Below are positions 28,098-42,708 of a stretch of 64,000 bases of DNA, piece after piece. The notes under the pieces were generated by a model. It worked only from the letters and a program-made list of their open reading frames with translations, had not been told where the DNA came from and made no database searches. The stretch comes from Hydrogenovibrio crunogenus (GTDB lineage: Bacteria > Pseudomonadota > Gammaproteobacteria > Thiomicrospirales > Thiomicrospiraceae). The stretch is from contig NZ_CP032096.1 of NCBI RefSeq assembly GCF_004786015.1, positions 1,240,001-1,304,000 of the forward strand, in the 5' to 3' direction. The translations under genes were made by a program, and so were the position numbers. The first letter of the stretch is position 1. Each line of letters starts with the position of its first letter.

Positions 28098-28685
28098 ATG
28101 GCCGAAGCCAATGAACCTATAAAAGTGATGCTGGTGGATGATGATTCTGCTCGTGCGGCATTATTGTCTCAAGCATTGCGAGATCATGGGTATGAGGTTA
28201 TTGCGCGTGTTGAGCCAGGACCAAGCCTTTTATCGAAGGTGGCTAAAGTGTTACCCGATATGATCGTAATTGATACGGATTCGCCTGATCGAGACATTCT
28301 GGAAAGCATGTCATTATTAAACGAGCATAACCCGATGCCGGTAGTGATGTTTTCGGATGTTGAGGATGAAACCGTGATTCAGGAAGCGATACGCTCAGGC
28401 GTCAGTGGGTATATTGCCAAAGGAGTGGATCAGCAACGTGTTAAATCGATTATGAATGTAGCGATTGCTCGTTTCAGAGAATACCAGGCTTTAAAAAATG
28501 AGTTGAAACAGACAAAAGATGAACTCGAAAGCAAAAAACTGATTGATCAGGCAAAACATCTGTTGATGTCTCAAAAAGGGGTTTCGGAACAAGAAGCATA
28601 TGAAGCCATGCGAAAAATGTCGATGGATCGTAATATTCGCATGGCTGACGTGGCGGAAAATATCATTAGTGTGCTGGAGTGGTGA
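28098..28685 (+). CDS. nasT: ANTAR-domain response regulator NasT
   Basis: RNA-binding antiterminator of nitrate assimilation. The 195-residue protein has an N-terminal receiver domain (MLVDDDSARAALL, probable phospho-acceptor in VIDTDSPDRD), a coiled linker (about 120-140) and a C-terminal ANTAR domain (IDQAKHLLMSQKGVSEQEAY...RNIRMADVAENIISVL). In the known NasST system NasS holds NasT inactive until nitrate binds, and NasT then relieves termination in the nas leader. NasS is encoded 7 nt downstream and a long terminator hairpin lies before nrtA, matching that mechanism. Confidence 0.92.
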   Translation: MAEANEPIKVMLVDDDSARAALLSQALRDHGYEVIARVEPGPSLLSKVAKVLPDMIVIDTDSPDRDILESMSLLNEHNPMPVVMFSDVEDETVIQEAIRSGVSGYIAKGVDQQRVKSIMNVAIARFREYQALKNELKQTKDELESKKLIDQAKHLLMSQKGVSEQEAYEAMRKMSMDRNIRMADVAENIISVLEW

Positions 28686-28692
28686 AAAGTAA

Positions 28693-29841
28693 ATGAAAAA
28701 TGTAAATATTGGATTTATCCCTTTAACGGACAGCGCACCGTTAATTGTTGCGAAGGAACAAGGTTTCTTTGAAAAGCAAGGCTTAAACGTTCAGTTACAA
28801 AAAGAAGTCTCTTGGTCAAATATTCGAGATAAATTAATCTTTGGAGAGGTCGAGGCGGCACATATGCTTGCCCCCATGTTAATGGCGACAACCTTAGGCA
28901 TAGGAGGTTTGAAAAAACATTTGGTCACAGCGTACTCTTTTGGTTTGAATGGCAATGCTGTTGGTGTTTCGAATACATTGTTCAATGAAATGAAACAATA
29001 TGATTCAGACCTGCTGTTAAAACCAAGAGAAAGTGCATATGTTTTGAAAAAACTTATTCAAAAGAGAGCAGCGAATCGACAGGAACCCCTGAGGTTTGCG
29101 GTGGTGTTTCCTTTTTCCATGCATCATTATCTTTTACGACATTGGTTAAAAAGTGCAGGCGTTGATGCAGATCGAGATGTACAAATAGTGGTTGTGCCAC
29201 CTTCAAGTGTTGTTAAAGCCTTAGAAGAAAAGTTGATTGATGGTTATTGCGTGGGAGAACCATGGAGTTCACATGCCGTGAAATGCGGCACAGCCGTCAC
29301 CCTAATCACGGGGTACGAAATATGGAACAATGCGCCAGAAAAGGTTTTGGGTGTTACGAAGCAATGGGCGGATGAAAATAAAACAACGCATCAAAAGTTA
29401 ATTACAGCTCTGTATCAGGCAAGTGAATGGATAGATCGAGTTGAACATAAAGAGCAACTGATCAAGTACTTGGCTCGGCCAGAGTATGTGGGTGCGCCAG
29501 AGGCGTCTCTATGCAATGCGATAGATGGTGATATTTATCACCCAGACACTCAATTCTGCCGAAAAGTGATTAACTTTTCAGTGCCATTTAAATATTTAGC
29601 AAACTTCCCATGGCAGTCACATGCAGAATGGATTCTGGAACAAATGAAAGAGTCGAATCAAATAGATGATAGCGTTGACATACAAAAAGTGGCGGCATCC
29701 ATTTACTTGACTGATACCTACCGGGAAATCATCTCTTCTCAAGGTGTGGTGTTACCGAGTGTCAATCATAAAAAAGAAGGCATTCATCTGCAGCCATGGT
29801 TGCTGGAAGGGGTAGAGTTAGGCGAAGATTGTTTTATTTAG
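28693..29841 (+). CDS. nasS: Nitrate/nitrite sensor NasS (cytoplasmic NrtA-like protein)
   Basis: A 382-residue relative of the periplasmic nitrate-binding protein NrtA that lacks any signal peptide (MKNVNIGFIPLTDSAPLIVAKEQGFF), so it is cytoplasmic, as expected for the NasS sensor. Shared family motifs include AAHMLAPM and DGYCVGEPW. It is encoded just after nasT, which fits the NasS-NasT pair where nitrate binding releases NasT. Paralogy with the NrtA protein encoded downstream is obvious from FIPLTDSAPL versus FIKLTDMAPL. Confidence 0.9.
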   Translation: MKNVNIGFIPLTDSAPLIVAKEQGFFEKQGLNVQLQKEVSWSNIRDKLIFGEVEAAHMLAPMLMATTLGIGGLKKHLVTAYSFGLNGNAVGVSNTLFNEMKQYDSDLLLKPRESAYVLKKLIQKRAANRQEPLRFAVVFPFSMHHYLLRHWLKSAGVDADRDVQIVVVPPSSVVKALEEKLIDGYCVGEPWSSHAVKCGTAVTLITGYEIWNNAPEKVLGVTKQWADENKTTHQKLITALYQASEWIDRVEHKEQLIKYLARPEYVGAPEASLCNAIDGDIYHPDTQFCRKVINFSVPFKYLANFPWQSHAEWILEQMKESNQIDDSVDIQKVAASIYLTDTYREIISSQGVVLPSVNHKKEGIHLQPWLLEGVELGEDCFI

Positions 29842-29989
29842 GTGCATTTCTGAACAATAAAGGTTCAATATGGCGCAGTTTAAAGTCGTGATGTTTTTAT
29901 TGGTTTGTAATTAAATTATTGTTAATTAAGGATTTAATTTTTTTGGCATAAAATTCGTTAAATACTTTTAAAATTTGAAAAGAGTATAG

Positions 29990-30042
29990 ACGCTCATAGG
30001 CATTTTCTCATGCGAGAAGATTGCCTGTGGGCGTTTTTTTTT
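29990..30042 (+). promoter_or_regulatory. Nas operon leader attenuator (terminator hairpin, NasT target)
   Basis: Stem of about 22 bp with a few G-U pairs and one bulged U, capped by AUGC between UUCUC and GAGAA, followed by nine T (30034-30042). It sits 82 nt before the nrtA start. Its place in front of a nas operon and next to nasT/nasS fits NasR/NasT-type antitermination known from Klebsiella and Azotobacter. A canonical pair of ANTAR hexaloop hairpins could not be drawn with confidence. A TTGGCA element with a loose sigma-54 fit lies at 29943-29958. The hairpin could alternatively just end the nasTS transcript. Confidence 0.65.
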
Positions 30043-30123
30043 GCTTTTAAAAAACTTCAACGATGAAAAGAATTTAAAAGTTTTAGTTGAATGACACAGT
30101 ATTAAACCGAAAAGGATGAAATT

Positions 30124-31509
30124 ATGACAAACCAACAAACAGGTCGACGCTCATTCATTAAAAAAACAACCCTGGCAATTGCCTCGGCAATGGTTTTTTC
30201 ATCAGGAAGTGCATACGCACTAGGGTATCCAGAAAAAGAAGATTTGAAGTTCGGGTTTATCAAGTTAACGGACATGGCTCCTTTAGCCATCGCTTATGAA
30301 AAGCGTTTTTTCGAAGATGAAGGGCTTTATGTGCAGTTAGAGGCTCAGGCCAACTGGAAAGTATTGTTGGATAGGGTTATTGATGGTCAGTTGGATGGCG
30401 CTCATATGTTAGCCGGGCAACCGATTGCGGCCACCATAGGATATGGAACCAAAGCAAACGTAATCACACCCATTTCGATGGACTTAAATGGTAATGCAAT
30501 CACCGTTTCTAATAAAACCTGGGCAGCGATGAAACCCAATGTTGAAATGGAAAACGGTAAGCCCAAACATCCAATCAGTGCATCGATATTAAAACCTGTG
30601 GTGGAATCTTATAAAAATGCTGGTAAGGCCTTTAAGATGGGAATGGTCTTTCCTGTTTCAACCCATAACTATGAGCTACGTTATTGGTTAGCAGCAGGTG
30701 GCTTGAAACCTGGCTATTACGCTCCTCATAAAGGGGATACAGCAGGGACACTCAACGCAGATGTATTACTTTCAGTGACGCCCCCTCCACAAATGCCTTC
30801 CACAATGGAAGCTGGAACCATTGAAGGGTATTGTGTCGGAGAACCCTGGAATCAACAGGCCGTTTTCAAAGGCATCGGTGTTCCCGTCATTTCAGATAAC
30901 TCCATTCAAACAAACAATCCTGAGAAAGTATTCGGTCTTAGAGAGGATTTTTATGAGCAGTATCCGAACACGACGATTCGAATCGTAAAGGCAATGATCA
31001 GAGCTGCAAAATGGTTGGATGAAAAGAATAACAAAAACCGTCCGGAAGCAGTCAAAATCCTATCTAAATCAAGTTATGTAGGGGCCGATTATAAAGTTAT
31101 CGCTAACTCCATGACTGGCACATTTGAATATGAAAAAGGCGATAAGCGTTCCGAGCCAGATTTCAATGTCTTCTTCCGTTATAACGCAACCTACCCTTAT
31201 TATTCCGATGCCATATGGTATATGACGCAAATGCGTCGTTGGGGGCAAATTTCAGAATATAAACCAGATACTTGGTATCAGGACATGGCTAAAAAAGTCT
31301 ACCGTCCAGACATCTATAAAAAAGCGGTTGCAGCTTTGATTGAAGACGGCGTGATGAAAAAATCTGATTTTGATACTGCTGTGTTCACAACAGATGGTTA
31401 CAGAGGCGTTCAGAATGACTTTATGGACGGCATTCCTTATGACGGCTCTAAACCAAATGCATACATCGATAGCCTTAAGATTGGATTGAAAGGCAAAGAA
31501 AAACTTTAA
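30124..31509 (+). CDS. nrtA: Nitrate ABC transporter substrate-binding protein (Tat-exported)
   Basis: Periplasmic nitrate/nitrite binding protein of a high-affinity uptake system (NasF in Klebsiella). The 461-residue precursor has a twin-arginine signal (TGRRSFIKKTTLAIASA, cleavage near residue 33, SAYA). The CmpA/NrtA fold motifs (KFGFIKLTDMAPLAIAYEKRFF, DGAHMLAGQP, EGYCVGEPWNQQA) follow. It is the first gene of the nas operon, after the leader hairpin, with an AAAAGGA ribosome site. Confidence 0.95.
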   Translation: MTNQQTGRRSFIKKTTLAIASAMVFSSGSAYALGYPEKEDLKFGFIKLTDMAPLAIAYEKRFFEDEGLYVQLEAQANWKVLLDRVIDGQLDGAHMLAGQPIAATIGYGTKANVITPISMDLNGNAITVSNKTWAAMKPNVEMENGKPKHPISASILKPVVESYKNAGKAFKMGMVFPVSTHNYELRYWLAAGGLKPGYYAPHKGDTAGTLNADVLLSVTPPPQMPSTMEAGTIEGYCVGEPWNQQAVFKGIGVPVISDNSIQTNNPEKVFGLREDFYEQYPNTTIRIVKAMIRAAKWLDEKNNKNRPEAVKILSKSSYVGADYKVIANSMTGTFEYEKGDKRSEPDFNVFFRYNATYPYYSDAIWYMTQMRRWGQISEYKPDTWYQDMAKKVYRPDIYKKAVAALIEDGVMKKSDFDTAVFTTDGYRGVQNDFMDGIPYDGSKPNAYIDSLKIGLKGKEKL

Positions 31510-31565: not shown

Positions 31566-32564
31566 ATGAATCCTTTAAAGTGGTCACTTGTTGAACCTTT
31601 TTACAAACTGATGATTGGTGAAGATCGTAAAAGCCAACTCAATAACATTATAAAAATGATTGGTTTGCCAATAGCAGGCCTGGTGGTTTTTTTATTCATT
31701 TGGCAAGGCGCCGCCTCGCATATTCATACTTCTTTGGGCCAGTTTCCAGGGCCAATACAAACGTATGAGCAGTTTATTTCGTTGCAGGAAGAAGCGGAAG
31801 CAAGCGCTATTAAAGAAGAAAAGTTTTACGAGCGTCAAGCCGAGCGTAATGCACAAAGAGTGGAAAAAGATCCAAGCTATGAGCCAACCATTCGCGACTA
31901 TACCGGACCGCCTACATTCTTTGAACAGATAGGACGGAGCTTAGTTACCGTCATGAGTGGGTTTATCCTAGCTTCAATCATTGCGATTCCAATTGGAATT
32001 ATCATCGGGTTAAGCGCCAATGCCTATGCTGCTGTGAATCCTCTTATTCAAATATTTAAACCTGTTTCTCCTTTGGCCTGGTTGCCCTTGGTGACGATGG
32101 TGGTGTCAGCGGTTTATGTGACGGACGACCCAGCTTTTGATAAGGCGTTTTTAAATTCGATGTTCACTGTTTTATTGTGCTGTTTGTGGCCTACCATTAT
32201 CAACACCGCAGCAGGTGTGGCAACGGTGACACAAGATTTAAAAAATGTCAGTCAGGTTTTACGCCTGAACTGGTGGACCCATGTTCGAAAAATTGTTCTA
32301 CCGTGCTCGATCCCAATGATGTTTACCGGTTTGAGAATTTCTTTAGGAATTGCATGGATGGTGTTGATTGCCGCTGAAATGCTGGCCCAAAACCCAGGCC
32401 TGGGTAAATTTGTGTGGGACGAATTTCAAAATGGCAGTTCTAATTCGTTAGGCCGAATTATGGTTGCCGTCATTATGATCGGGATTGTTGGGTTTATATT
32501 AGACCGAGGCATGTTGGTTTTGCAAAAAGCCGTGTCTTGGGATAAGTCGGTCACATTACGATAA
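31566..32564 (+). CDS. nrtB: Nitrate ABC transporter permease
   Basis: Inner-membrane channel of the nitrate transporter (NasE type), 332 residues. It has an N-terminal helix (about 33-51), a charged linker (residues 70-115, EEAEASAIKEEKFYERQAE) that is longer than in short family members, then five helices with the BPD-transport EAA region (RLNWWTHVRKIVLPCSIPMMFTGLRISLGIAW). It lies between nrtA and the ATPase gene in an operon with small gaps. Confidence 0.94.
   Translation: MNPLKWSLVEPFYKLMIGEDRKSQLNNIIKMIGLPIAGLVVFLFIWQGAASHIHTSLGQFPGPIQTYEQFISLQEEAEASAIKEEKFYERQAERNAQRVEKDPSYEPTIRDYTGPPTFFEQIGRSLVTVMSGFILASIIAIPIGIIIGLSANAYAAVNPLIQIFKPVSPLAWLPLVTMVVSAVYVTDDPAFDKAFLNSMFTVLLCCLWPTIINTAAGVATVTQDLKNVSQVLRLNWWTHVRKIVLPCSIPMMFTGLRISLGIAWMVLIAAEMLAQNPGLGKFVWDEFQNGSSNSLGRIMVAVIMIGIVGFILDRGMLVLQKAVSWDKSVTLR
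32393..32404. repeat. Copy of dispersed palindrome CCAGGCCTGG inside nrtB
   Basis: Exact core at 32394-32403, extended to CCCAGGCCTGGG. It encodes the NPGLGKF segment. Confidence 0.7.
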
Positions 32565-32583
32565 GCAGGGGTAGGAGAAAAAA

Positions 32584-33378
32584 ATGTCAGAAGTTCATTT
32601 GGAATTAACGAATGTTGGAATTGAATTTCCAACCCCTAAAGGGCCTTTTAGGGCTTTAGAAAAAGTGGATTTAAAAATACAACAAGGAGAATTCATTTCT
32701 CTTATCGGGCATTCAGGATGCGGTAAATCGACGGTATTAAATATCGTTGCCGGATTGTATGAAGCGACCGAAGGCGGAGTGTTACTGGATGGAAGAGAGG
32801 TTAACGAACCCGGTCCTGAAAGAGCGGTTGTTTTCCAAAACCATTCCTTATTGCCTTGGTTAACGGCTTATGAAAATGTGGAGTTGGCGGTTGATCAAGT
32901 GTTTAAAAAAAGCAAAACCGCGTCTGAGAAAAAAGAATGGATTGAACATAACTTAAAGTTGGTCCACATGGACCATGCGATGCACAAACGACCTGACGAG
33001 ATTTCAGGTGGCATGAAGCAGCGTGTGGGTATTGCCCGAGCATTGGCGATGCAACCTAAGATCATGTTAATGGATGAACCTTTTGGAGCACTTGATGCTC
33101 TAACCCGAGCGCATTTGCAAGATTCATTGATGGAGATTCAGAAAGACTTGAACAATACCGTTATTATGATTACGCATGATGTGGATGAGGCCGTTTTATT
33201 GTCAGATCGTATTGTGATGATGACAAATGGGCCAGCGGCTAGTATAGGAGAAATATTAAAGGTTGATTTGCCACAGCCACGAGATCGGTTGGCGTTAGCG
33301 GATGATCCAACTTACAACCACTATCGTTCAGAAGTATTGCGCTTTTTATATGAAAAGCAACGCAAGGTTAATCATTAA
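32584..33378 (+). CDS. nrtD: Nitrate ABC transporter ATP-binding protein
   Basis: ATPase of the nitrate importer (NasD type), 264 residues. Walker A GHSGCGKST, Q-loop VVFQNHSLLPW, signature ISGGMKQRVGIARAL, Walker B IMLMDEPFGALD and switch His in MITHDVDEA are all present. It has no fused substrate-binding domain, unlike cyanobacterial NrtC. The ribosome site is GGAG. It ends 15 nt before nasC. Confidence 0.94.
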   Translation: MSEVHLELTNVGIEFPTPKGPFRALEKVDLKIQQGEFISLIGHSGCGKSTVLNIVAGLYEATEGGVLLDGREVNEPGPERAVVFQNHSLLPWLTAYENVELAVDQVFKKSKTASEKKEWIEHNLKLVHMDHAMHKRPDEISGGMKQRVGIARALAMQPKIMLMDEPFGALDALTRAHLQDSLMEIQKDLNNTVIMITHDVDEAVLLSDRIVMMTNGPAASIGEILKVDLPQPRDRLALADDPTYNHYRSEVLRFLYEKQRKVNH

Positions 33379-33393
33379 GGAACGGGTGATTTT

Positions 33394-34605
33394 ATGAAAC
33401 CGAAACTCATTTTAGTCGGTACAGGAATGGCGGGAACTCGTTTCCTTGAACATTTGCTAGAAGAAGCTCCGAACAGCTATGAAATTGAGGTATTCAATAA
33501 AGAGCCAGTTGGCGGTTATAACCGCATTATGTTATCTCCGGTATTGGCAGGTGAAAAAACGATTCCAGAGATAATGACTCATGATGCAACCTGGTTTGAG
33601 GAACGAAGAATTCGTTTGCATACCGGCAAGATGGTTTCAGCTATTGACCCGGTTGGACAAGTTCTTACCACCTTTTGCGGTGAGACTTATTATTACGACA
33701 AATTGGTTATCGCAACAGGCTCGAACCCATTTAAATTAGAGATTCCAGGTGTTGATTTACCAGGCGTGGTCACGTTTAGAGATATTCGTGATGTCGAAAG
33801 CATGGTATCGGTTTCCCAAAGTCATAACAAAGCGGTCGTAATTGGTGGGGGCTTACTAGGATTGGAAGCTGCTCATGGTTTAATGAAAAGAGGAATGGAC
33901 GTCACCGTTATTCATCGAAGTGACGTGCTGATGAATATGCAAATGGATAAAGAATCTGGTCAATTGCTAAAAAAACATCTTGAGCAGAGTTCGAATGATA
34001 CCACGGGGATGAAATTCCGTCTGGGAGTCAATGCCACCGAAATTATTGGACAAAATCAAGTCGAAGGCATTCGCTTAGATGATGGGTCAGAAATTGTGAC
34101 TGACCTCGTGGTGATGTCGATAGGGATTCGTCCTAACACACAGTTAGCCAAACAAGCCAACCTTGAAGTCAACCGAGGGATTTTGGTGAACGACTTCCTT
34201 GAGACTTCGGCTGAAAATATTTATGCATTAGGGGAGTGCAATGAACACCGAGGCCAAACGTATGGCTTGGTTGCCCCTTTGTATGAGCAAGCCAAGATTC
34301 TAGCTAAAAGATTGGCGGGGCAATCCGTGTCTTATACCGGTTCCATTACCTCGACGATGTTAAAAGTCACGGGCGTTCACCTGTTTTCTGCGGGTGAGTT
34401 TAAAGGGGAAAACGGAACGGATGTTATTGTTTTTAGAGATCTGGCAAAAAATATTTATCGAAAAATTGTATTAAAAAACAATCAGGTCATCGGAGCCCTT
34501 TTATTTGGTGACACCACCGGTGCCACTTGGTTATTTGAACTGTTACGACAAAAACAAAATATTTCGCCGATGCGAGATACGTTGGTTTTTGGTCCGGGTT
34601 ATTGA
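33394..34605 (+). CDS. nasC: FAD-dependent NAD(P)H oxidoreductase, electron-transfer subunit of nitrate reductase
   Basis: A 403-residue flavoprotein similar to the N-terminal half of NirB, with two dinucleotide-binding folds (LILVGTGMAGTRFLEHLL and AVVIGGGLLGLEAAHGL) and the FAD-contact segment NIYALGECNEHRG. It lacks the [2Fe-2S] and siroheme parts of NirB. By position in the nasFEDCBA-like order it should pass NADH electrons to NasA, whose C-terminal BFD-like [2Fe-2S] domain could receive them. The partner assignment is from gene order. Confidence 0.85.
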   Translation: MKPKLILVGTGMAGTRFLEHLLEEAPNSYEIEVFNKEPVGGYNRIMLSPVLAGEKTIPEIMTHDATWFEERRIRLHTGKMVSAIDPVGQVLTTFCGETYYYDKLVIATGSNPFKLEIPGVDLPGVVTFRDIRDVESMVSVSQSHNKAVVIGGGLLGLEAAHGLMKRGMDVTVIHRSDVLMNMQMDKESGQLLKKHLEQSSNDTTGMKFRLGVNATEIIGQNQVEGIRLDDGSEIVTDLVVMSIGIRPNTQLAKQANLEVNRGILVNDFLETSAENIYALGECNEHRGQTYGLVAPLYEQAKILAKRLAGQSVSYTGSITSTMLKVTGVHLFSAGEFKGENGTDVIVFRDLAKNIYRKIVLKNNQVIGALLFGDTTGATWLFELLRQKQNISPMRDTLVFGPGY

Positions 34606-34641
34606 AGCTGACAGTCAGGAATTAGAGATTAGGAGCAGGAA

Positions 34642-37182
34642 ATGAAACAGCGTATTGTTGTCATTGGTAATGGGATGGTCGGGCATAGTTTTCTCGAAAA
34701 GCTTATCGCCAGCGAGGGTTTTGAAAACTTTGAGGTAACGGTTTTTGGAGAGGAACCTCGCAAAGCCTATGATCGTGTGTATTTATCTTCTTATTTTTCA
34801 GGTAAAACGGCTGAAGATTTGAGCTTGGTTAAACCGGGGTTCTATGAAGAGAATGGCATTCAGCTGTATTTGAAAGATAGAGTCATTGAGATTGATCGTA
34901 CGCAAAAAACGATTACGTCAGAATCCGGTCAGAAAGTTTGTTATGACAAACTCATTCTAGCAACAGGTTCCTATCCCTTTGTACCGCCAATTACAGGGAA
35001 TGATCGTGCTGGCTGTTTGGTTTATCGAACGATTGAAGATTTAGAAGCCATCAAAGCTGCAGCCACTAACGGCAAAACGGGTGTGGTTGTAGGCGGCGGT
35101 TTATTAGGCTTAGAAGCGGCTAAAGCGCTGAAAGATCTTGGTTTGGATACACATGTGGTTGAATTTGCGCCCAGGTTAATGCCTGTCCAACTGGATGAGG
35201 GCGGTGCAGGGTTGCTGAAAAGAAAAATTGAAAACATGGGCGTCCATGTCCATGTTTCAAAAGCAACGCAAGAGATTACGGACGGGGAAAGCTGTCTTAA
35301 TAAAATGATCTTTTCCGATGGAGAGTCCTTGGAAACTGATATTGTTTTATTTTCAGCCGGTATACGTCCACGTGATGATTTGGCAAAGCAAGCAGAATTA
35401 ACGATTGGGCCACGCGGCGGGGTTGAAGTTAATGATCAATGCTTGACGTCAGACCCTAATATTTATGCCATTGGTGAATGTGCGTTACATAACGGGATGA
35501 TCTATGGACTGGTTGCGCCCGGTTATGCCATGGCACAAGCCGTCGTTGATCAACTGAACTTAACTTCTGCCAACTTTGAAGGCGCGGATATGAGCACCAA
35601 GCTGAAGTTAATGGGGGTTGATGTTGGTTCCATCGGAGACCCTCATGGTAACGATGAAAGCGCGTTGTCTTATGTCTATGAAAATGGTCCGGAAGAGGTC
35701 TATAAAAAAATCGTCGTTTCATCAGATGGTCAGACATTACTTGGCGCGGTTTTAGTAGGTGACGCTGAGGATTTTAGCAATCTCCTGCAAATCATGTTGA
35801 ATGGCATGGCGCTACCTGAACACCCGGATTCGTTAATTCTTCCTAACCGGGATGGCAGTGGTAGTGATTTATTCGGCCCCGATGCTTTACCGGAAACAGC
35901 TCAGCTTTGTTCGTGTTATGACGTGTCAAAAGGAGACATCATTCAATCGGTTGAGGCAGGATGTTGCACCGTTTCAGACGTGAAAGCATCCACACAAGCA
36001 GGTACCGGCTGCGGGGGATGTGTTCAACTGGTCACCAATGTTTTAAACAATGAGCTAGAAAAGCGTGGAGTGGAAGTCAATACCGACCTTTGTGAACACT
36101 TTAGCCATACCCGTCAAGAACTGTTTCATATTTGTCAGGTTGAAGAAATTAAAACCTTCGAAGACCTTATCCAAAAGCATGGCCGTGGCCACGGTTGTGA
36201 TATCTGTAAACAAACCACAGGCAATATTTTTGCCTCCTTATGGAATAGTTATGCCTTGGAGCCTGACAAAATTCCACTACAAGATACCAATGATAATTAT
36301 TTGGGCAATATGCAAAAAGATGGAACCTATTCGGTGATTCCTCGAGTGCCTGGAGGTGAGATAACCCCTCAAAAATTAATTGTTTTGGGTCAGGTAGCGA
36401 CCAAATACAAGCTCTATACAAAGGTTAACGGGGGACAACGAATTGTGCTGTTTGGGGCGCAGATGAATGACCTTCCTGCGATTTGGAAAGAATTGATTGA
36501 TGCTGGTTTTGAATCAGGTCAAGCTTATGCTAAAGCGCTGAGAACCGTTAAATCCTGTGTAGGGTCTACCTGGTGTCGTTATGGTTTGGATGACTCCGTG
36601 ACCATGGCGATTGATATGGAAAATCGTTATAAGGGACTTCGCTCACCCCATAAAATCAAAATGGGGGTGTCGGGTTGTACACGTGAGTGTGCGGAGGCAC
36701 AGGCAAAAGACATCGGCTTGATTTCAACAGAAGAAGGCTGGAATTTATATGTATGTGGTAATGGTGGAATGAAGCCACGCCATGCTGATTTGTTTGCAAC
36801 GAAACTGACTCAGGAAGAAGTTTTCCGTTATGTCGATCGGTTATTGATGTTTTATATCAAAACGGCGGATCGCCTGCAAAGAACCGCCAGTTGGCTGGAT
36901 AATCTAGAAGGTGGATTAACTTATTTACGAGAGGTCGTGATTCAAGACTCATTAGGCATTGGCGAATCTCTCGAAGATCAAATGAAAGATTTGCGAGAAA
37001 CCTATGAATGTGATTGGAAGCGAGCTATTGCAAGCCCATCTTTCACTAAAAGATTCCGTTCTTTTGTCAATGTGGATGACAAAGCCGAGCAGTTGTTTGT
37101 TCAAGAACGAGGGCAAATTCGTCCGGCCACCGAGCAGGATAAATTGAACGGAATTGCGGTTCAAGTTAAGGAAATCGCTTAA
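34642..37182 (+). CDS. nirB: Assimilatory nitrite reductase [NAD(P)H] large subunit
   Basis: Reduces nitrite to ammonium with six electrons. The 846-residue protein carries an FAD and an NAD(P)H fold (VVIGNGMVGHSFLEKL, GVVVGGGLLGLEAAKAL), a BFD-like [2Fe-2S] region (CSCYDVSKGDI...GTGCGGC), a second Cys cluster (CEHF...HGRGHGCDIC) and the siroheme-[4Fe-4S] domain with Cys639, Cys645, Cys679 and Cys683 (CVGSTWC, GCTREC). Length and order match E. coli NirB (847 aa). The ribosome site is AGGAG. A palindromic hairpin follows before nirD. Confidence 0.96.
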   Translation: MKQRIVVIGNGMVGHSFLEKLIASEGFENFEVTVFGEEPRKAYDRVYLSSYFSGKTAEDLSLVKPGFYEENGIQLYLKDRVIEIDRTQKTITSESGQKVCYDKLILATGSYPFVPPITGNDRAGCLVYRTIEDLEAIKAAATNGKTGVVVGGGLLGLEAAKALKDLGLDTHVVEFAPRLMPVQLDEGGAGLLKRKIENMGVHVHVSKATQEITDGESCLNKMIFSDGESLETDIVLFSAGIRPRDDLAKQAELTIGPRGGVEVNDQCLTSDPNIYAIGECALHNGMIYGLVAPGYAMAQAVVDQLNLTSANFEGADMSTKLKLMGVDVGSIGDPHGNDESALSYVYENGPEEVYKKIVVSSDGQTLLGAVLVGDAEDFSNLLQIMLNGMALPEHPDSLILPNRDGSGSDLFGPDALPETAQLCSCYDVSKGDIIQSVEAGCCTVSDVKASTQAGTGCGGCVQLVTNVLNNELEKRGVEVNTDLCEHFSHTRQELFHICQVEEIKTFEDLIQKHGRGHGCDICKQTTGNIFASLWNSYALEPDKIPLQDTNDNYLGNMQKDGTYSVIPRVPGGEITPQKLIVLGQVATKYKLYTKVNGGQRIVLFGAQMNDLPAIWKELIDAGFESGQAYAKALRTVKSCVGSTWCRYGLDDSVTMAIDMENRYKGLRSPHKIKMGVSGCTRECAEAQAKDIGLISTEEGWNLYVCGNGGMKPRHADLFATKLTQEEVFRYVDRLLMFYIKTADRLQRTASWLDNLEGGLTYLREVVIQDSLGIGESLEDQMKDLRETYECDWKRAIASPSFTKRFRSFVNVDDKAEQLFVQERGQIRPATEQDKLNGIAVQVKEIA

Positions 37183-37198
37183 TGCCGTTGTTATGCAT

Positions 37199-37224
37199 AA
37201 AAACAGCCAGGCCTGGTTGTTTTT
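37199..37224 (+). terminator. Hairpin with CCAGGCCTGG core between nirB and nirD
   Basis: Near-perfect 26-bp palindrome. Each 13-base arm holds AAAAACA/GCCAGG and its complement with one G-U pair, and the hairpin ends in TTTTT. It looks like an intrinsic terminator but lies inside the operon, so it could cause partial termination or mark a processing site. Confidence 0.5.
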
Positions 37225-37252
37225 GAAACCTTATGGAGAAGGGTATAAAGAC

Positions 37253-37573
37253 ATGAGTGAGTTTAAAAAAGTTTGTCAACTGTCTGATTTAATAAATAAT
37301 TCTGGTGTCGCGGCATTGATCGAAAATCAACAGATTGCGTTGTTTTATGTTGAAAATAAAGTGTTTGCTTTAAGTAATTATGATCCGATTGGTCAGGCCA
37401 ATGTGATGTCCCGCGGTATGGTGGGTGATCTAAAAGGGGAGTTGATGGTGGCGTCTCCTTTGCAAAAACAACATTACAACTTAAATACCGGGGTTTGTAT
37501 GGACGATGAGGCCATTTCTATTCCCACATTCGAAACGAAGATTGAAAATCAATCCGTCTGGGTAAAATTATAA
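37253..37573 (+). CDS. nirD: Nitrite reductase [NAD(P)H] small subunit
   Basis: A 106-residue Rieske-like small subunit that lacks the Cys/His cluster ligands, as is usual for NirD. Recognisable segments are NKVFALSNYDPIGQANVMSRG and HYNLNTGVCMDD. The frame is open 99 nt further upstream, overlapping nirB, but the ATG at 37253 gives the standard N-terminus (MSEFKKVCQLSDL) and has GAAGGG upstream. The stop codon abuts the nasA start. Confidence 0.93.
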   Translation: MSEFKKVCQLSDLINNSGVAALIENQQIALFYVENKVFALSNYDPIGQANVMSRGMVGDLKGELMVASPLQKQHYNLNTGVCMDDEAISIPTFETKIENQSVWVKL

Positions 37574-40297
37574 ATGAATCGTCCTGTGTTTTTAAGCTCT
37601 GAAGATGTCGAAACAACCTGCCCTTATTGCGGGGTAGGGTGCGGTATGACGGTTTCGCCTAAAATACCGTCAACCAAGAGTGATTCGTTCGAAGTCAAGG
37701 TTAAAGGTTCGTCAGCACATCGTGCAAATTATGGCAAATTATGCGTTAAAGGATCATCCGCAGGTGAAACGGTGGATTTTTCTGGGCGAATGTTACACCC
37801 ACAGATTAATGGCAACATCGTCGATTGGGAAACCGCACTGAATGATGTAGCTAAGACGTTTCAGAAAACCATCTCAGAATACGGTCCCGATTCCGTCGCC
37901 TTTTATGTATCTGGACAGTTCTTGACGGAAGATTACTACGTTGCCAATAAATTGATTAAGGGATTTATTGGAACCGCGAACATCGATACCAATTCCCGTC
38001 TCTGTATGGCCTCGGCGGTAGTAGGTTACAAACGAGCGTTTGGCTCCGATACAGTGCCTTGCTGTTATGAGGATTTAGAACACGCCGATTTAATTACGTT
38101 GGTGGGATCAAACACGGCATGGGCGCATCCCATTATTTATCAAAGAATTGCGGCGGCTAAAAAGAAAAATCCGAAACTGAAAATTGTGGTGGTTGACCCG
38201 CGTAAAACGGCAACTTGCGACATTGCTGACCTTCATCTAGCCATTAAGCCAGGAATGGATGCCGCTTTATTCAATGGTTTGTTGGCGTACCTTTATCAGC
38301 AGAATGCACTTGATTTAGATTATATTCAAAAGCATACCGAAGGATTTGAAAGCGCATTGCAAAAAGCAGATGAGCTGCAAGGCAATGTATCGGATTTGGC
38401 GACACAATGCGACCTTAATGAAACTGACTTGCGACAGTGGCTAGATTGGGCGACTTACACACCTAAAATGGTGACGATGTACTCGCAAGGTATTAATCAA
38501 TCATCCTCTGGCGTGGATAAATCCAATGCCATTATTAACTGTCATTTAGCAACGGGCAGAATTGGGAAAGAAGGAATGGGACCGTTTTCGGTTACCGGAC
38601 AACCCAATGCAATGGGTGGGCGAGAAGTCGGAGGCTTAGCGAACCAGCTCGCAGCCCATATGGATTTTAATGACCCTCAAAATATCGATCGAGTAGCACG
38701 TTTCTGGCAAGCCGAAAACATGGCTCAACAAAACGGCTTGAAAGCAGTCGATTTATTCCAAGCTGTGGGCGAGGGCAAGATTAAAGCCATTTGGATTATG
38801 AATACCAATCCGGTGGTCTCAATGCCGGATGCGGATAACGTCAAACGCGCCCTGGAAAAATGTGACTATGTTGTGGTGCAGGATTGCATGCAAGACACTG
38901 ATACAACACGAGTTGCTAACGTGTTATTACCTGCCACCACCTGGGGAGAAACCGATGGCGCCGTGACCAACTCCGATCGAACTATCTCGATTCAAAGGCA
39001 ATTTATGCAAGGGCCAGAAAATGCTCGACCTGATTGGTGGATCTTATCGGAAGTGGCCAAAAGGATGGGATGGGAGCATGCATTCAATTATGATACCGCA
39101 GTGGATATTTTCAGAGAACACGCTCAGTTATCCGGCTTTGAAAACAATGGCTCACGTGATTTTGATATTTCAGCATTTGCAAATATTTCTGAACAAGAAT
39201 ATGCCAATTTAAAACCGACTCAATGGCCTGTGAATGCCGCTGCACCGAACGGAACACAACGTATGTTTTCAGATGGTCGCTTTTATACGCCTTCTAAAAA
39301 GGCGCAATTCATCGCCATCACACCTTATTCGCCCTTGAGTCAGCCCACAAAGAACAAACCCTATGTATTGAATACCGGTCGTGTTCGCGACCAATGGCAT
39401 ACGATGACTCGTACTGCTAAAACAGCCAAGTTGATGGCACATAAGAATGAACCTTACATTACGCTTCACCCGGATGATGCCAGCCTCCATCAATTATCAG
39501 AAGGCGATTTGGTTAGAGTTTCAAATGAACTTGGACAGTTGATCGGACGGGTTGAAATCAGTCGTGCACAGCGTCGGGGTGACATCTTTGTACCGATTCA
39601 TTGGACCAGTCAGTATGCCAGCCACGGTCGAGTTGACAGTTTGGTAAGGGCTCATGTCGATCCGCTTTCCGGACAACCGGAATCAAAACACACCACTGTG
39701 AAAATCAAACGTTATTCTGCGCAGTGGCAAGGATTTATTTTAAGTCGAACTGAGATTGATCCAGAATTGTTTGACGATGACTATTGGGTAAAGATTACGG
39801 GTAAACATTTTTACCGGTATGAAATCGCCAGTGAAAGAGCACTTAAAAATGCCCAGGCCTGGGCAAAAACCGTACTGTCTTCCCTAGAAAATACGGAGTG
39901 GATTGAATATGACGATGCCTCTTGTCAGCAATACCGTGCTGCCTTAATCAAGAACGATCAACTTCAAAAAGTATTTTTTATGGCGGCGGACCATAAAATG
40001 CCCAGCCGAGATTGGTTAGGTCAATTATTTTCAACTTCGGAACTTTCTTCTGCAGAGCGTCGCAGTTTGTTGGCTGGTAAAGCAAGTGGTGCGAAGGACC
40101 CAGGGCGAACGATTTGTTCGTGTTTTGGGATCGGAATTAACACCATTATTGATGCGATTGAAGCACAAAATTTAGTCAGTGTAGAAGCCATAGGACAAGC
40201 ACTTAAAGCGGGGACAAACTGCGGTAGTTGTGTTCCGGAATTAACGGAAATTTTAGCGGTTGAACTGAACTCAGGCGTTTCTGAAAAAACAGGATGA
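37574..40297 (+). CDS. nasA: Assimilatory nitrate reductase catalytic subunit
   Basis: Cytoplasmic molybdopterin enzyme reducing nitrate to nitrite. The 907-residue chain has an N-terminal [4Fe-4S] motif (Cys16, Cys19, Cys23 in TCPYCGVGCGM, then GKLCVKG) and the molybdopterin oxidoreductase and dinucleotide-binding domains (SVTGQPNAMGGREVGGLANQ, VLNTGRVRDQWHTMTRT). A C-terminal BFD-like [2Fe-2S] domain (ICSCFGIG...GTNCGSCVPEL) follows, as in Klebsiella NasA. It starts immediately after the nirD stop. No export signal is present. Confidence 0.96.
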   Translation: MNRPVFLSSEDVETTCPYCGVGCGMTVSPKIPSTKSDSFEVKVKGSSAHRANYGKLCVKGSSAGETVDFSGRMLHPQINGNIVDWETALNDVAKTFQKTISEYGPDSVAFYVSGQFLTEDYYVANKLIKGFIGTANIDTNSRLCMASAVVGYKRAFGSDTVPCCYEDLEHADLITLVGSNTAWAHPIIYQRIAAAKKKNPKLKIVVVDPRKTATCDIADLHLAIKPGMDAALFNGLLAYLYQQNALDLDYIQKHTEGFESALQKADELQGNVSDLATQCDLNETDLRQWLDWATYTPKMVTMYSQGINQSSSGVDKSNAIINCHLATGRIGKEGMGPFSVTGQPNAMGGREVGGLANQLAAHMDFNDPQNIDRVARFWQAENMAQQNGLKAVDLFQAVGEGKIKAIWIMNTNPVVSMPDADNVKRALEKCDYVVVQDCMQDTDTTRVANVLLPATTWGETDGAVTNSDRTISIQRQFMQGPENARPDWWILSEVAKRMGWEHAFNYDTAVDIFREHAQLSGFENNGSRDFDISAFANISEQEYANLKPTQWPVNAAAPNGTQRMFSDGRFYTPSKKAQFIAITPYSPLSQPTKNKPYVLNTGRVRDQWHTMTRTAKTAKLMAHKNEPYITLHPDDASLHQLSEGDLVRVSNELGQLIGRVEISRAQRRGDIFVPIHWTSQYASHGRVDSLVRAHVDPLSGQPESKHTTVKIKRYSAQWQGFILSRTEIDPELFDDDYWVKITGKHFYRYEIASERALKNAQAWAKTVLSSLENTEWIEYDDASCQQYRAALIKNDQLQKVFFMAADHKMPSRDWLGQLFSTSELSSAERRSLLAGKASGAKDPGRTICSCFGIGINTIIDAIEAQNLVSVEAIGQALKAGTNCGSCVPELTEILAVELNSGVSEKTG
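39851..39864. repeat. Copy of dispersed palindrome CCAGGCCTGG inside nasA
   Basis: Exact core at 39853-39862, extended to GCCCAGGCCTGGGC. It encodes NAQAWAK, a different frame from most other intragenic copies. Confidence 0.7.
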
Positions 40298-40306
40298 GGA
40301 GGGTGT

Positions 40307-41728
40307 ATGGATTATTTACCGATCTTTATGAAAATTGAACAACAGCATTGCCTGATTGTTGGAGGTGGAGCGGTTGCCGCCAGAAAAGCCGATTTGTTTA
40401 TCAAGTCGGGAGCCATCGTCACGGTCGTGGCACCTAAACTGGGGAATGAAATGTCATTTCATTTGGCTCAAGGAAAAATCATTTGGCATATGAATACCTT
40501 TTCGACCGCCTTGGTATCCCAATTGCCACGACCTAACTTGGTTATTTCCGCAACAGATGATCAAAACGTAAATTTAGCGGTTTATGAAACGTATCATGCA
40601 CAAGCCATTCCCGTTAATGTGGCGGATCAAACCGAATACTGTGATTTCATTCTGCCTGCGATTGTAGATCGTGCCCCAATGACCATTGCGATTTCAACCG
40701 GAGGGCGCTCCCCGGTATTGGCTCGAGTAATGAAAGCACGTTTAGAAACGATGATCCCACATGGATTCAGTGTGTTAACGGATTTGCTGGGTCGTTATCG
40801 TCAGGCAGTCAAAAATGTGATTTCGGACATTGATGGACGAAAAACATTCTGGGAAACCCTTTTATCAGGTTTGTTTATTGATAAGGCGGTTCATGGGAAC
40901 ACAGGAGAAGCCGAAGCCTTATTGGAAGCCGAGCTTGAAACAATCAGAACCAACGGGCAGAGTTTGCCACAGGGGGAGGTTTATATTATCGGAGCAGGAC
41001 CAGGCGATCCCGATTTAATGACTTTCAAAGGACTTAGATTGCTACAACAGGCGGATGTCATTTTATACGATCGATTGGTTGCACCTGAAATTCTGGAAAT
41101 GGGACGACGTGAAGCTGAACGTATTTACGTAGGCAAAAAAGAGAAATGGCATAAGGTTGATCAAAAAGACATCAATCAAATGTTGGTGGATCTGGCACGA
41201 CAAGGGAAACGTGTTGCACGATTGAAAGGAGGGGACCCTTACATTTTTGGCCGAGGAGCAGAAGAAGTTGAACTTTTGGTGCAACATGATGTGCCTTATC
41301 AGGTTGTGCCAGGGATTACGGCGGCCGCGGGCTGTTCTGTTTATGCAGATTTTCCTTTAACCCATCGTGATTATGCGCAATCTGTGGCCTTGGTAACCGG
41401 TCACCAGCAGGCAGGCGCACAAGGCATTGATTATGCCAAGCTGGCACAATCCGGTGATACGATGGTATTTTATATGGGAATTAAAAATGCTCCTAAAATT
41501 CAAGCAGGCTTGATTGCTCATGGTCTTAACCCAGACACGCCGGCTGCGATTATCGAAAATGGAACGCGCGTTAACCAAAAGGTAACCGTCACTTCTCTGG
41601 CCAAACTGTCTGAAACGATTCAAAAACAGTCTATTAAACCTCCTGCATTATTAGTGATAGGAGATGTGATTAAAGTCAGAGAACGATTGCAAAAAAAGTC
41701 ATTATTGGATGATAAGGTGCCGGCATGA
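40307..41728 (+). CDS. cysG: Siroheme synthase (trifunctional CysG)
   Basis: Makes siroheme for NirB from uroporphyrinogen III. The 473-residue fusion has an N-terminal precorrin-2 dehydrogenase/ferrochelatase (CLIVGGGAVAARKADLF) and a C-terminal SAM uroporphyrinogen III methyltransferase (VYIIGAGPGDPDLMTFKGLRLLQQADVILYDRLV, split at the GPGDPDL motif; VVPGITAAAG). It is placed directly after nasA with a GAGGAGG ribosome site and overlaps the next gene by 4 nt, so cofactor supply is co-expressed with the reductases. Confidence 0.96.
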   Translation: MDYLPIFMKIEQQHCLIVGGGAVAARKADLFIKSGAIVTVVAPKLGNEMSFHLAQGKIIWHMNTFSTALVSQLPRPNLVISATDDQNVNLAVYETYHAQAIPVNVADQTEYCDFILPAIVDRAPMTIAISTGGRSPVLARVMKARLETMIPHGFSVLTDLLGRYRQAVKNVISDIDGRKTFWETLLSGLFIDKAVHGNTGEAEALLEAELETIRTNGQSLPQGEVYIIGAGPGDPDLMTFKGLRLLQQADVILYDRLVAPEILEMGRREAERIYVGKKEKWHKVDQKDINQMLVDLARQGKRVARLKGGDPYIFGRGAEEVELLVQHDVPYQVVPGITAAAGCSVYADFPLTHRDYAQSVALVTGHQQAGAQGIDYAKLAQSGDTMVFYMGIKNAPKIQAGLIAHGLNPDTPAAIIENGTRVNQKVTVTSLAKLSETIQKQSIKPPALLVIGDVIKVRERLQKKSLLDDKVPA

Positions 41729-42708
41729 CAGATCATCCTTTCAGTCAATACCTGAGGATTCTTGGTAAAGGACCTATCAGCCGACGTTCTTTAACCGAAG
41801 CAGAAGCAAGTGATGCGCTAGGGATGATTTTGTCTGGACAGGTGACAGACAAGCAATTAGGCGCATTTTTACTGTTAATGCGTGCAAATGGCGAAACCCC
41901 TGATGAGCTCATCGGATTTGTCAAAGGCATTAGGCAAGCATTAGACCTCAATGAAAAACAGGGTGTTGTAGAATTGGATTGGGCGGCTTATGCCGGTAAA
42001 TGGCGTTATCCTCCTTATTTTTTACTGGCGATAAAACTGTTAACGCAGAATGGCACTCGAGTCTTGTTGCATGGGGATGCCGGCCAATTTAGTAATCGTC
42101 AATATGTTGAATCCTTTTTAGAGCCGCTAAATTTTTATCAAGCCAGTTCGATTATGCACGCTCGGGACTTGGTTTCAGAATGCAAAGCGACCTATCTTCC
42201 ATTAGAAAATTTTGCGCCTGACTTACGCGAGATATTACATTTAAAATCCGAGCTAGGTGTTCGAACAGTTTTTAATACCGCTGTTAAGTTATTGAATCCA
42301 TTGAATGCACCTGCATCCATTCAAGGTATTTTTCATAAGGGTGTGGAATCGCTTCATCACTCAACAGCCATGGTCATTGGAACTGAGCATAATTTGGTCT
42401 TTAAAGGGGAAGGTGGGGAGGCTGAAATACGGCCCGATGCGTTAACACAGCTCTATTTTTCGACTAGAAACGCCACTGGAATGAGACAACATCCATTCAA
42501 AGGCATTATTGAACGTCAAATACGTCCAAAAGAATGGCAACAGCAAGACATCATTGATTTATGGCGTGGTGACAAAAAGGATTTATATGGCGAATCCTCC
42601 GTTGTGGCGACCACCGCTACGGCTTTGATGCTGTTGGATTCGCTTTCCGAGGTTGAAGCGCTTGCTAAAGCTAAGGGATATTGGGCTCGGAGGAAGATAG
42701 AATGTTGA
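41725..42708 (+). CDS. ybiB: TrpD2/YbiB-like protein (anthranilate phosphoribosyltransferase fold)
   Basis: A 327-residue member of the glycosyltransferase family 3 fold, resembling E. coli YbiB (TrpD2), a DNA-binding protein whose role is not settled. The N-terminal helical domain reads RRSLTEAEASDALGMILSGQVTDKQLGAFLLLMR. The phosphoribosyl-transferase loop of true TrpD (GTGGD) is replaced by AYAGKWRYP, so tryptophan synthesis is unlikely. It overlaps cysG by 4 nt and moeA by 7 nt, a position often seen in nitrate assimilation clusters of related bacteria as far as I recall. Confidence 0.82.
   Translation: MTDHPFSQYLRILGKGPISRRSLTEAEASDALGMILSGQVTDKQLGAFLLLMRANGETPDELIGFVKGIRQALDLNEKQGVVELDWAAYAGKWRYPPYFLLAIKLLTQNGTRVLLHGDAGQFSNRQYVESFLEPLNFYQASSIMHARDLVSECKATYLPLENFAPDLREILHLKSELGVRTVFNTAVKLLNPLNAPASIQGIFHKGVESLHHSTAMVIGTEHNLVFKGEGGEAEIRPDALTQLYFSTRNATGMRQHPFKGIIERQIRPKEWQQQDIIDLWRGDKKDLYGESSVVATTATALMLLDSLSEVEALAKAKGYWARRKIEC

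Follow-up and report, generated by a model that had tools for sequence, protein, structure and literature searches.

The Klebsiella nas operon has a gene order that is matched by the nitrate operon analysed here. Transcription of the Klebsiella operon is controlled by antitermination through the ANTAR protein NasR, and its nasF leader contains two hexaloop hairpins, P1 and P2, with the hexaloop of P2 overlapping the terminator (available text of PMC7496416). NasR binds single P2 RNA at ~12 µM, compared to 1 µM for RNA with both hairpins, and SELEX with NasR showed that a C-G pair closes the loop (PMC7496416). In the Enterococcus eutP leader, which is the target of the REC-ANTAR protein EutV, formation of P2 excludes the terminator and the loop has G at position 4; EutV is phosphorylated, and deletion of P1 ablated its induction, so that EutV needs P1 (available text of PMC3369931). 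Only one chain of EutV uses its Arg142 to contact G4 of the loop, and replacement of Arg142 by alanine made binding 8-fold weaker (PMC8934654). The same paper raises the question of why two hairpins are required for ANTAR antitermination if the dimer holds a single loop at any one time. In Paracoccus and Bradyrhizobium, NasT is held by NasS and freed by nitrate, and its target is the leader RNA of nas or nos genes. The release of NasT from NasS by nitrate was described for Paracoccus (PMC3795266), where a series of leader hairpins is mentioned with data not shown there, and the available text of PMC3795266 and PMC6759348 describes no one-loop leader for these two systems. Among open-licence PubMed Central papers, we found nothing on a nas leader with a single hexaloop, or on control by ANTAR proteins in the bacterial group studied here.

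The window, i.e., the whole stretch of 64,000 nucleotides that was analysed, comes from a genome consisting of a single contig of 2.45 Mb; all window features listed below are on the + strand. nasT (28098–28685) encodes a receiver plus ANTAR RNA-binding protein (Pfam Response_reg, 2.8e-17; ANTAR, 8.8e-21) with PDB relatives 1s8n, 6wsh (EutV) and 4akk (nitrate regulatory protein). It adjoins nasS (28693–29841), which encodes the presumed nitrate-binding partner of NasT, an NrtA-like protein (Pfam NMT1_2, 5.1e-78). A REC-ANTAR protein adjoining an NrtA-like sensor protein is the arrangement of a NasS-NasT pair, and release of NasT by nitrate is a candidate property of the pair, judged from sequence. 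With nasT and nasS directly upstream, an intergenic region of 282 nt leads from nasS to nrtA (30124–31509), the first gene of the operon, encoding the substrate-binding protein of a nitrate ABC transporter (Pfam NMT1_2, 2.6e-94). Then follow nrtB and nrtC for permease and ATPase (31566–33378; TIGR01183 below cut-off and TIGR01184 above cut-off) and the genes for a nasC-like FAD/NAD reductase, nirB, a Rieske-type nirD and a nasA-like molybdopterin reductase (33394–40297), named from profiles and context: the nirB profile scored above cut-off, and the nasC-like and nasA-like names combine profiles below cut-off with context. By profile matches, the cluster ends in cysG (siroheme synthase) and a glycosyltransferase-family-3-like gene (40307–42708); relatives of the latter (41725–42708) at ~35% identity are found upstream of nasT in Aliiglaciecola (L071, L078, and L079). 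The closest named relative of the window nrtA among the matches listed is Hydrogenovibrio sp. SC-1 (93%). There are two ANTAR genes in the genome, with nasT being the one beside the nas operon. The second (G000:C1:871683-872228, L052) lies beside an EAL-domain gene and encodes a protein ~35% identical to NasT; in some relatives (L060, L061, and L062) it adjoins nasT on the upstream side.

The initial annotation described a stem of about 22 bp, interrupted by one bulge, capped by a tetraloop and followed by nine T, at a distance of 82 nt from nrtA, and both sequence and fold confirm it. The predicted intrinsic terminator (29988–30042) has a stem of 22 pairs with one bulged base (29988–30036), an AUGC loop (30010–30013) and nine T at 30034–30042, the last of which is followed after 82 nt by the nrtA ATG at 30124. 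Folding of 29955–30123 gave –45.1 kcal/mol relative to a shuffle mean of –27.7 (z –5.2), and 0/200 shuffles were equally stable. In an alignment of 16 leaders, which takes in the window leader and the second copy from the same genome, 97.2% of cells in the terminator stem were paired, 6/11 pairs were altered on both sides, and 0/500 shuffles reached the covariation score. The terminator hairpin is far beyond chance, and by predicted fold and covariation the window leader has the intrinsic terminator expected of an ANTAR target. A U-G pair of the terminator, at alignment columns 15 and 59, is invariant in 16/16 leaders, as expected if U15 also had to pair with hexaloop A4, although such invariance alone proves nothing. 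The window hairpin was not listed by a simple terminator scanner, probably because the stem rule of the scanner allows no bulge. Rfam, searched with the window leader at gathering and permissive thresholds, gave no credible match and nothing above the gathering score; a match to the trpB motif (25.7 bits against a gathering score of 59) was rejected as merely terminator-like. Leader-peptide attenuation was also rejected, there being no ATG between 29970 and the hairpin, just a four-codon TTG frame without a ribosome-binding site.

A scan of nrtA leaders for hexaloop hairpins sharing an arm with the terminator resolved a single ANTAR hexaloop hairpin in the window, GAGU[AUAGAC]GCUC (29982–29995). 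The 3' arm of this putative antiterminator, GCUC, is part of the 5' arm of the terminator, which is the place of P2 in ANTAR leaders, and its loop AUAGAC (29986–29991) has A at position 1 and G at position 4 (A1..G4), as ANTAR targets do. Shuffling of the 25 nt upstream created an A1..G4 hexaloop at this site in 0.4% of cases and one with R1..G4 in 1.6%. In contrast to the C-G closure found by SELEX, the window loop has U-G as its closing pair; G060 and G062 are the only ones with C-G among the 22 single-type nrtA leaders defined below. The initial annotation had not been able to draw the usual twin hexaloops and suggested that the recognition element may be a variant. With respect to P1 this holds in the window, while the second hexaloop (P2) is there, at 29982–29995; the suggestion of a variant is borne out by a single hexaloop in place of two hairpins. 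Since the leader is ANTAR-like in its working but does not have the two hairpins, it is not a plain member of the ANTAR targets.

The same geometry was observed before nrtA in many Proteobacteria. From 100 nrtA leaders, with identical ones removed and many still related, 71 had a detected terminator, and in 58/71 a hexaloop was located at the terminator 5' arm when no loop bases were required. A1..G4 was found in 50 of the 71 and R1..G4 in 57, where shuffling of the 25 nt upstream expects 1.0 and 1.7, respectively. Of 59 loops, 50 had A and 9 had G at position 1, and 57 had G at position 4. An A1..G4 hexaloop was present at 22/214 other terminators in the same loci, some of which may be further nas leaders. 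Fourteen leaders were counted as having a terminator without an R1..G4 hexaloop; two of them (L039 and G059) do have one by other scans, and several Alteromonadales among them have, by eye, a version with 3 bp. Within the order, 22 of 26 nrtA leaders had GAGY hexaloops, and we refer to these as single-type; the pattern admitted only A or G at position 1 and G at position 4, and position 1 was A in 12 and G in 10. In this clade 3/4 of the hexaloop pairs are invariant, which puts the hexaloop beyond the reach of a covariation test. When the window leader is constrained to form the hexaloop, the cost is 7.1 kcal/mol, so that by folding alone the terminator would win and protein would be needed to hold the hexaloop.

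Promoters of the sigma54 type have GG at –24 and GC at –12, with ten bases between. Taking the best-scoring GG within 60 nt, we found a sigma54-type –24/–12 element, TTGGCATAAAATTCGTT, at 29943–29959 (GG-N10-GT); its score was reached by 0/1000 shuffles of the 60 nt. The –12 dinucleotide in the window is GT, not GC, and in the 22 single-type nrtA leaders it is GT in 9, GC in 7, TC in 5, and CC in 1. The promoter score was reached by 0–28/1000 shuffles outside the chemoreceptor leaders and by 55–108/1000 in three chemoreceptor leaders. A half site GGTGCA (29841–29846) and an imperfect GGTTCA (29862–29867) are NtrC-like; upstream of the 22 single-type nrtA leaders, GGTGCA/TGCACC occurs 17 times, in 13/22, where shuffling expects 0.8. 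The predicted transcript start, ~29970, precedes the hairpin; a start downstream of 30042 would, as the initial annotation had pointed out, make the hairpin only the terminator of nasTS.

In 22/22 single-type nrtA leaders the predicted start is 9–14 nt from the hexaloop, and this short stretch folds at 0.0 kcal/mol. Within 60 nt upstream of its hexaloop, the window leader has no other one of the A1..G4 kind that could serve as P1, and the predicted start leaves no room for one. The minimum-free-energy hairpin at 29962–29987 was rejected as P1: its 5' arm precedes the predicted start, its loop is not a hexaloop, and none recurs in relatives. Among 28 distinct single-type leaders, comprising nrtA, formate/nitrite-transporter (FNT), and chemoreceptor copies, an A1..G4 hexaloop with four or more pairs was present in the 60 nt upstream in 2/28, one of them upstream of the promoter and the other, UUAA[AUUGAU]UUAA with four A-U pairs, before FNT. 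By contrast, in a hand-made list of 43 leaders with a different P2 stem, 34 have an upstream A1..G4 hexaloop (P1), counting L108, where P1 is found only 71 nt away, and 31/34 have at least 31 nt from predicted start to P2; the other three are without a credible promoter. No A1..G4 P1 was found in 9/43 leaders, with L123 of these masked by N. The dual-hexaloop nrtA leaders, in a sister genus (g6; G030 and G080) and in many Proteobacteria, have the gene, the overlap with the terminator, and a similar promoter element in common with the window leader, but differ in having P1 upstream of P2. In the sister genus, P1 is clear in G030 and G080, and the leaders of G015 and G082 are shorter and without an A1..G4 hexaloop, which suggests that P1 was lost in steps. 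In the leaders of L094, L097, L100, L105, and G082, a short hairpin containing UUCG can be drawn by eye where P1, with its A1..G4 hexaloop, would be expected.

We further analysed recurrence of the element by searching the order. The ANTAR covariance search proposed in the initial annotation gave nothing with Rfam, so far as the window leader is concerned, and 33 places in 19/62 genomes (E ≤ 0.01) with a purpose-built model. That model was built from 16/23 single-type leaders; L032 (the same stretch as L031), the long chemoreceptor leaders L033 and L034, and four leaders without a U run were left out of alignment and model. Seventeen of the 33 matches are outside the training set, one of them (G002) identical to a training sequence. 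Downstream of the matches are nrtA (18), FNT (5), a chemoreceptor gene (3), and nasA or nirD-nasA (4); the remaining 3/33 are unassigned, two of them with cysG in the stretch, so that 30/33 precede either nitrate genes or the chemoreceptor gene that adjoins nasT. An ANTAR gene is present in 19/19 genomes with the element, and the element in 0/21 genomes that have no ANTAR gene (Fisher p 8e-5, uncorrected for kinship), the absences being soft given strict filters and scoring of only the best first-pass candidates. The window genome itself has a second copy (G000:C1:2257607-2257671; L139:1499-1563) with its own terminator and U9, before an FNT gene; the next gene downstream is 72% identical to the PP2C/kinase protein of a relative. 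The genes upstream of this FNT copy point the other way, so that it is not their terminator; GGTGCA boxes are seen upstream of it. G001, G004, and G010 each have the element three times: ahead of nrtA, ahead of FNT, and ahead of a PAS chemoreceptor gene divergent from nasT. The terminator stems differ among copies, with the hexaloop kept. The attenuators before the PAS chemoreceptor gene (L033:8164, L034:8231, and L035:8427) possibly place chemotaxis under nitrate control, and weak matches from a wider search, before nasT in L159 and L160 (G001 and G010; E ~0.01, imperfect hexaloop) raise the possibility of autoregulation.

The regulator is not the same throughout the clade. In Hydrogenovibrio SC-1, a NIT-ANTAR (NasR-type) protein is encoded before nrtA (L058:4558-5748) in place of NasST, which was not found in the 6 kb before SC-1 nrtA, and GAGU[AAUGAC]GCUC is retained in the leader together with the terminator; the L058 leader and nrtA match G007. 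G060 and G062 encode ANTAR proteins of ~400 aa before nrtA. Since the leader is kept though the sensor is swapped, it seems to follow the ANTAR domain and not the sensor. The 22 single-type leaders represent one clade and one regulator swap, and their counts are therefore not independent events.

To compare the ANTAR domains, window NasT was aligned to EutV. Lys143, Lys149, Glu160, Tyr164, Arg168, Met172, and Arg177 are kept, whereas Arg142 is replaced by Lys, Lys147 by Gln, Asn173 by Asp, and Arg175 by Asn. In the nas-linked ANTAR proteins of the 22 single-type genomes, position 142 is never Arg (NasT: K 3, N 9, S 4, T 2, and G 1; NasR type: Q 3), with regulators matched by locus where one leader has two handles and G067 read by eye. 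The dual-hexaloop loci differ in this respect: 25 ANTAR domains were found at 31 hand-listed P1 loci, and position 142 is Arg in 24 and His in 1 (L119). G030 and G080 also have Arg142, as do the NasR-type proteins found in the sister genus and the second ANTAR protein, encoded in tandem, in the same genomes. A Porticoccus MAG (L103) has no visible P1 and has Gln142. Of the nine leaders without an A1..G4 P1, five (L094, L097, L100, G015, and G082) have regulators with Arg142, and for L086, L105, and L123 no ANTAR was seen in the surrounding stretch. Further exceptions are L119 and L089, the latter with Lys142 and, by eye, a G1..G4 P1. The absence of P1 and the absence of Arg142 thus do not always go together. 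As the 19 NasT cases are one lineage, the support amounts to two, perhaps three, separate changes.

The overlap of hexaloop and terminator, the recurrence of the regulon, co-occurrence with ANTAR genes, and the regulator swap with the leader kept all support the proposal of the initial annotation that NasT controls an attenuator at this site. We consider it probable, from these sequence features, that the window leader is an ANTAR attenuator of transcription, responsive to nitrate and working with a single hexaloop and no P1. Under nitrogen shortage, the NtrC/sigma54-type promoter ~12 nt before the hexaloop would start nrtABC-nasC-nirBD-nasA. By default, the nascent RNA would form the long hairpin with U9, and RNA polymerase would stop. 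Nitrate would make NasS release NasT, which would hold GAGU[AUAGAC]GCUC as a small hairpin; because the hexaloop 3' arm is the terminator 5' arm, the terminator could not then form, and the operon would be read. RNA polymerase reaches the end of the hexaloop at 29995, ahead of the terminator 3' arm at 30014–30036, so that NasT would have ~40 nt of transcription to seize it. Compared to nasF, this leader would work with P2 only and with a NasS-NasT pair as regulator, and compared to eutP it would do so without P1. Given that EutV needs P1 and that the affinity of NasR for P2 is weak, one loop might be too weak. The U-G closure, G1 in 10/22 leaders, GC at –12 in only 7/22, and the A1..G4 hexaloops at 22/214 other terminators also count against this reading. 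NasT may bind one loop tightly enough, perhaps via an altered ANTAR face, or may be recruited otherwise.

Three other readings of the leader were weighed against the single-hexaloop attenuator. The leader could be a normal attenuator with two hexaloops, in which P1 was overlooked because transcription starts further upstream or P1 is differently shaped. The published target motif does have two hairpins (PMC3369931 and PMC7496416, available text), the start is predicted, from an element with GT at –12, and AAUUA[AGGAUU]UAAUU and the weak hairpin at 29962–29987 can be drawn in the window, as can the A1..G4 hairpin before FNT. However, an upstream A1..G4 hexaloop in just 2/28 leaders, the unfolded 9–14 nt in 22/22, and the distance of at least 31 nt in 31/34 leaders that do have P1 argue against it, and we regard an overlooked P1 as unlikely. 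That the hairpin is the terminator of nasTS alone, with nrtA starting downstream, would suit its location 147 nt past the nasS stop and ahead of nrtA, but is very improbable given the promoter-like element upstream of the hairpin, the FNT copy behind oppositely oriented genes, chemoreceptor copies located between divergent genes in three relatives, and a hexaloop that is kept despite differing terminator stems.

A former ANTAR attenuator that has lost protein control, leaving constant partial termination or control by another partner, would account for the absence of P1, for G1 in 10/22 leaders, for the change at ANTAR residue 142, and for the four relatives whose nrtA leaders have no U run. 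Drift is not expected to keep a GAG/CUC stem and its overlap with the long hairpin, and so their recurrence in 22 nrtA leaders and several other operons, all in ANTAR-bearing genomes, counts against such a loss, which we consider improbable.

The single-hexaloop attenuator of the window may have a wider meaning. On balance, and by a modest degree, we favour the view that Hydrogenovibrio-Thiomicrorhabdus has a natural, clade-wide class of single-hexaloop ANTAR antiterminators, in which P1 was lost and residue 142 changed alongside, separately in NasT, in NasR, and perhaps in the Porticoccus MAG, with a regulon of transporter, reductase, nitrite-channel, and chemoreceptor operons. A natural system with seemingly one loop, a sister genus with two loops, and a co-changing residue would make the question of why two hairpins are needed testable by swapping ANTAR domains as well as leaders. 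A further implication is that such regulons would escape searches that assume two hairpins.

The four leaders without a U run are nrtA leaders L037, L060, L062, and L064 (G013, G072, G056, and G065), in which hexaloop and overlapping hairpin are kept. Translational control was considered for them and is not supported: Shine-Dalgarno-complementary stretches can be drawn, but the Shine-Dalgarno is freed in none of the four (0/4) when the hexaloop is forced. At the positions of EutV 164 and 168, NasT of these four loci has His and a residue other than Arg, respectively, and the same combination is seen in L063 and in the NasR-type proteins of G007, G060, and G062, which have the U run.
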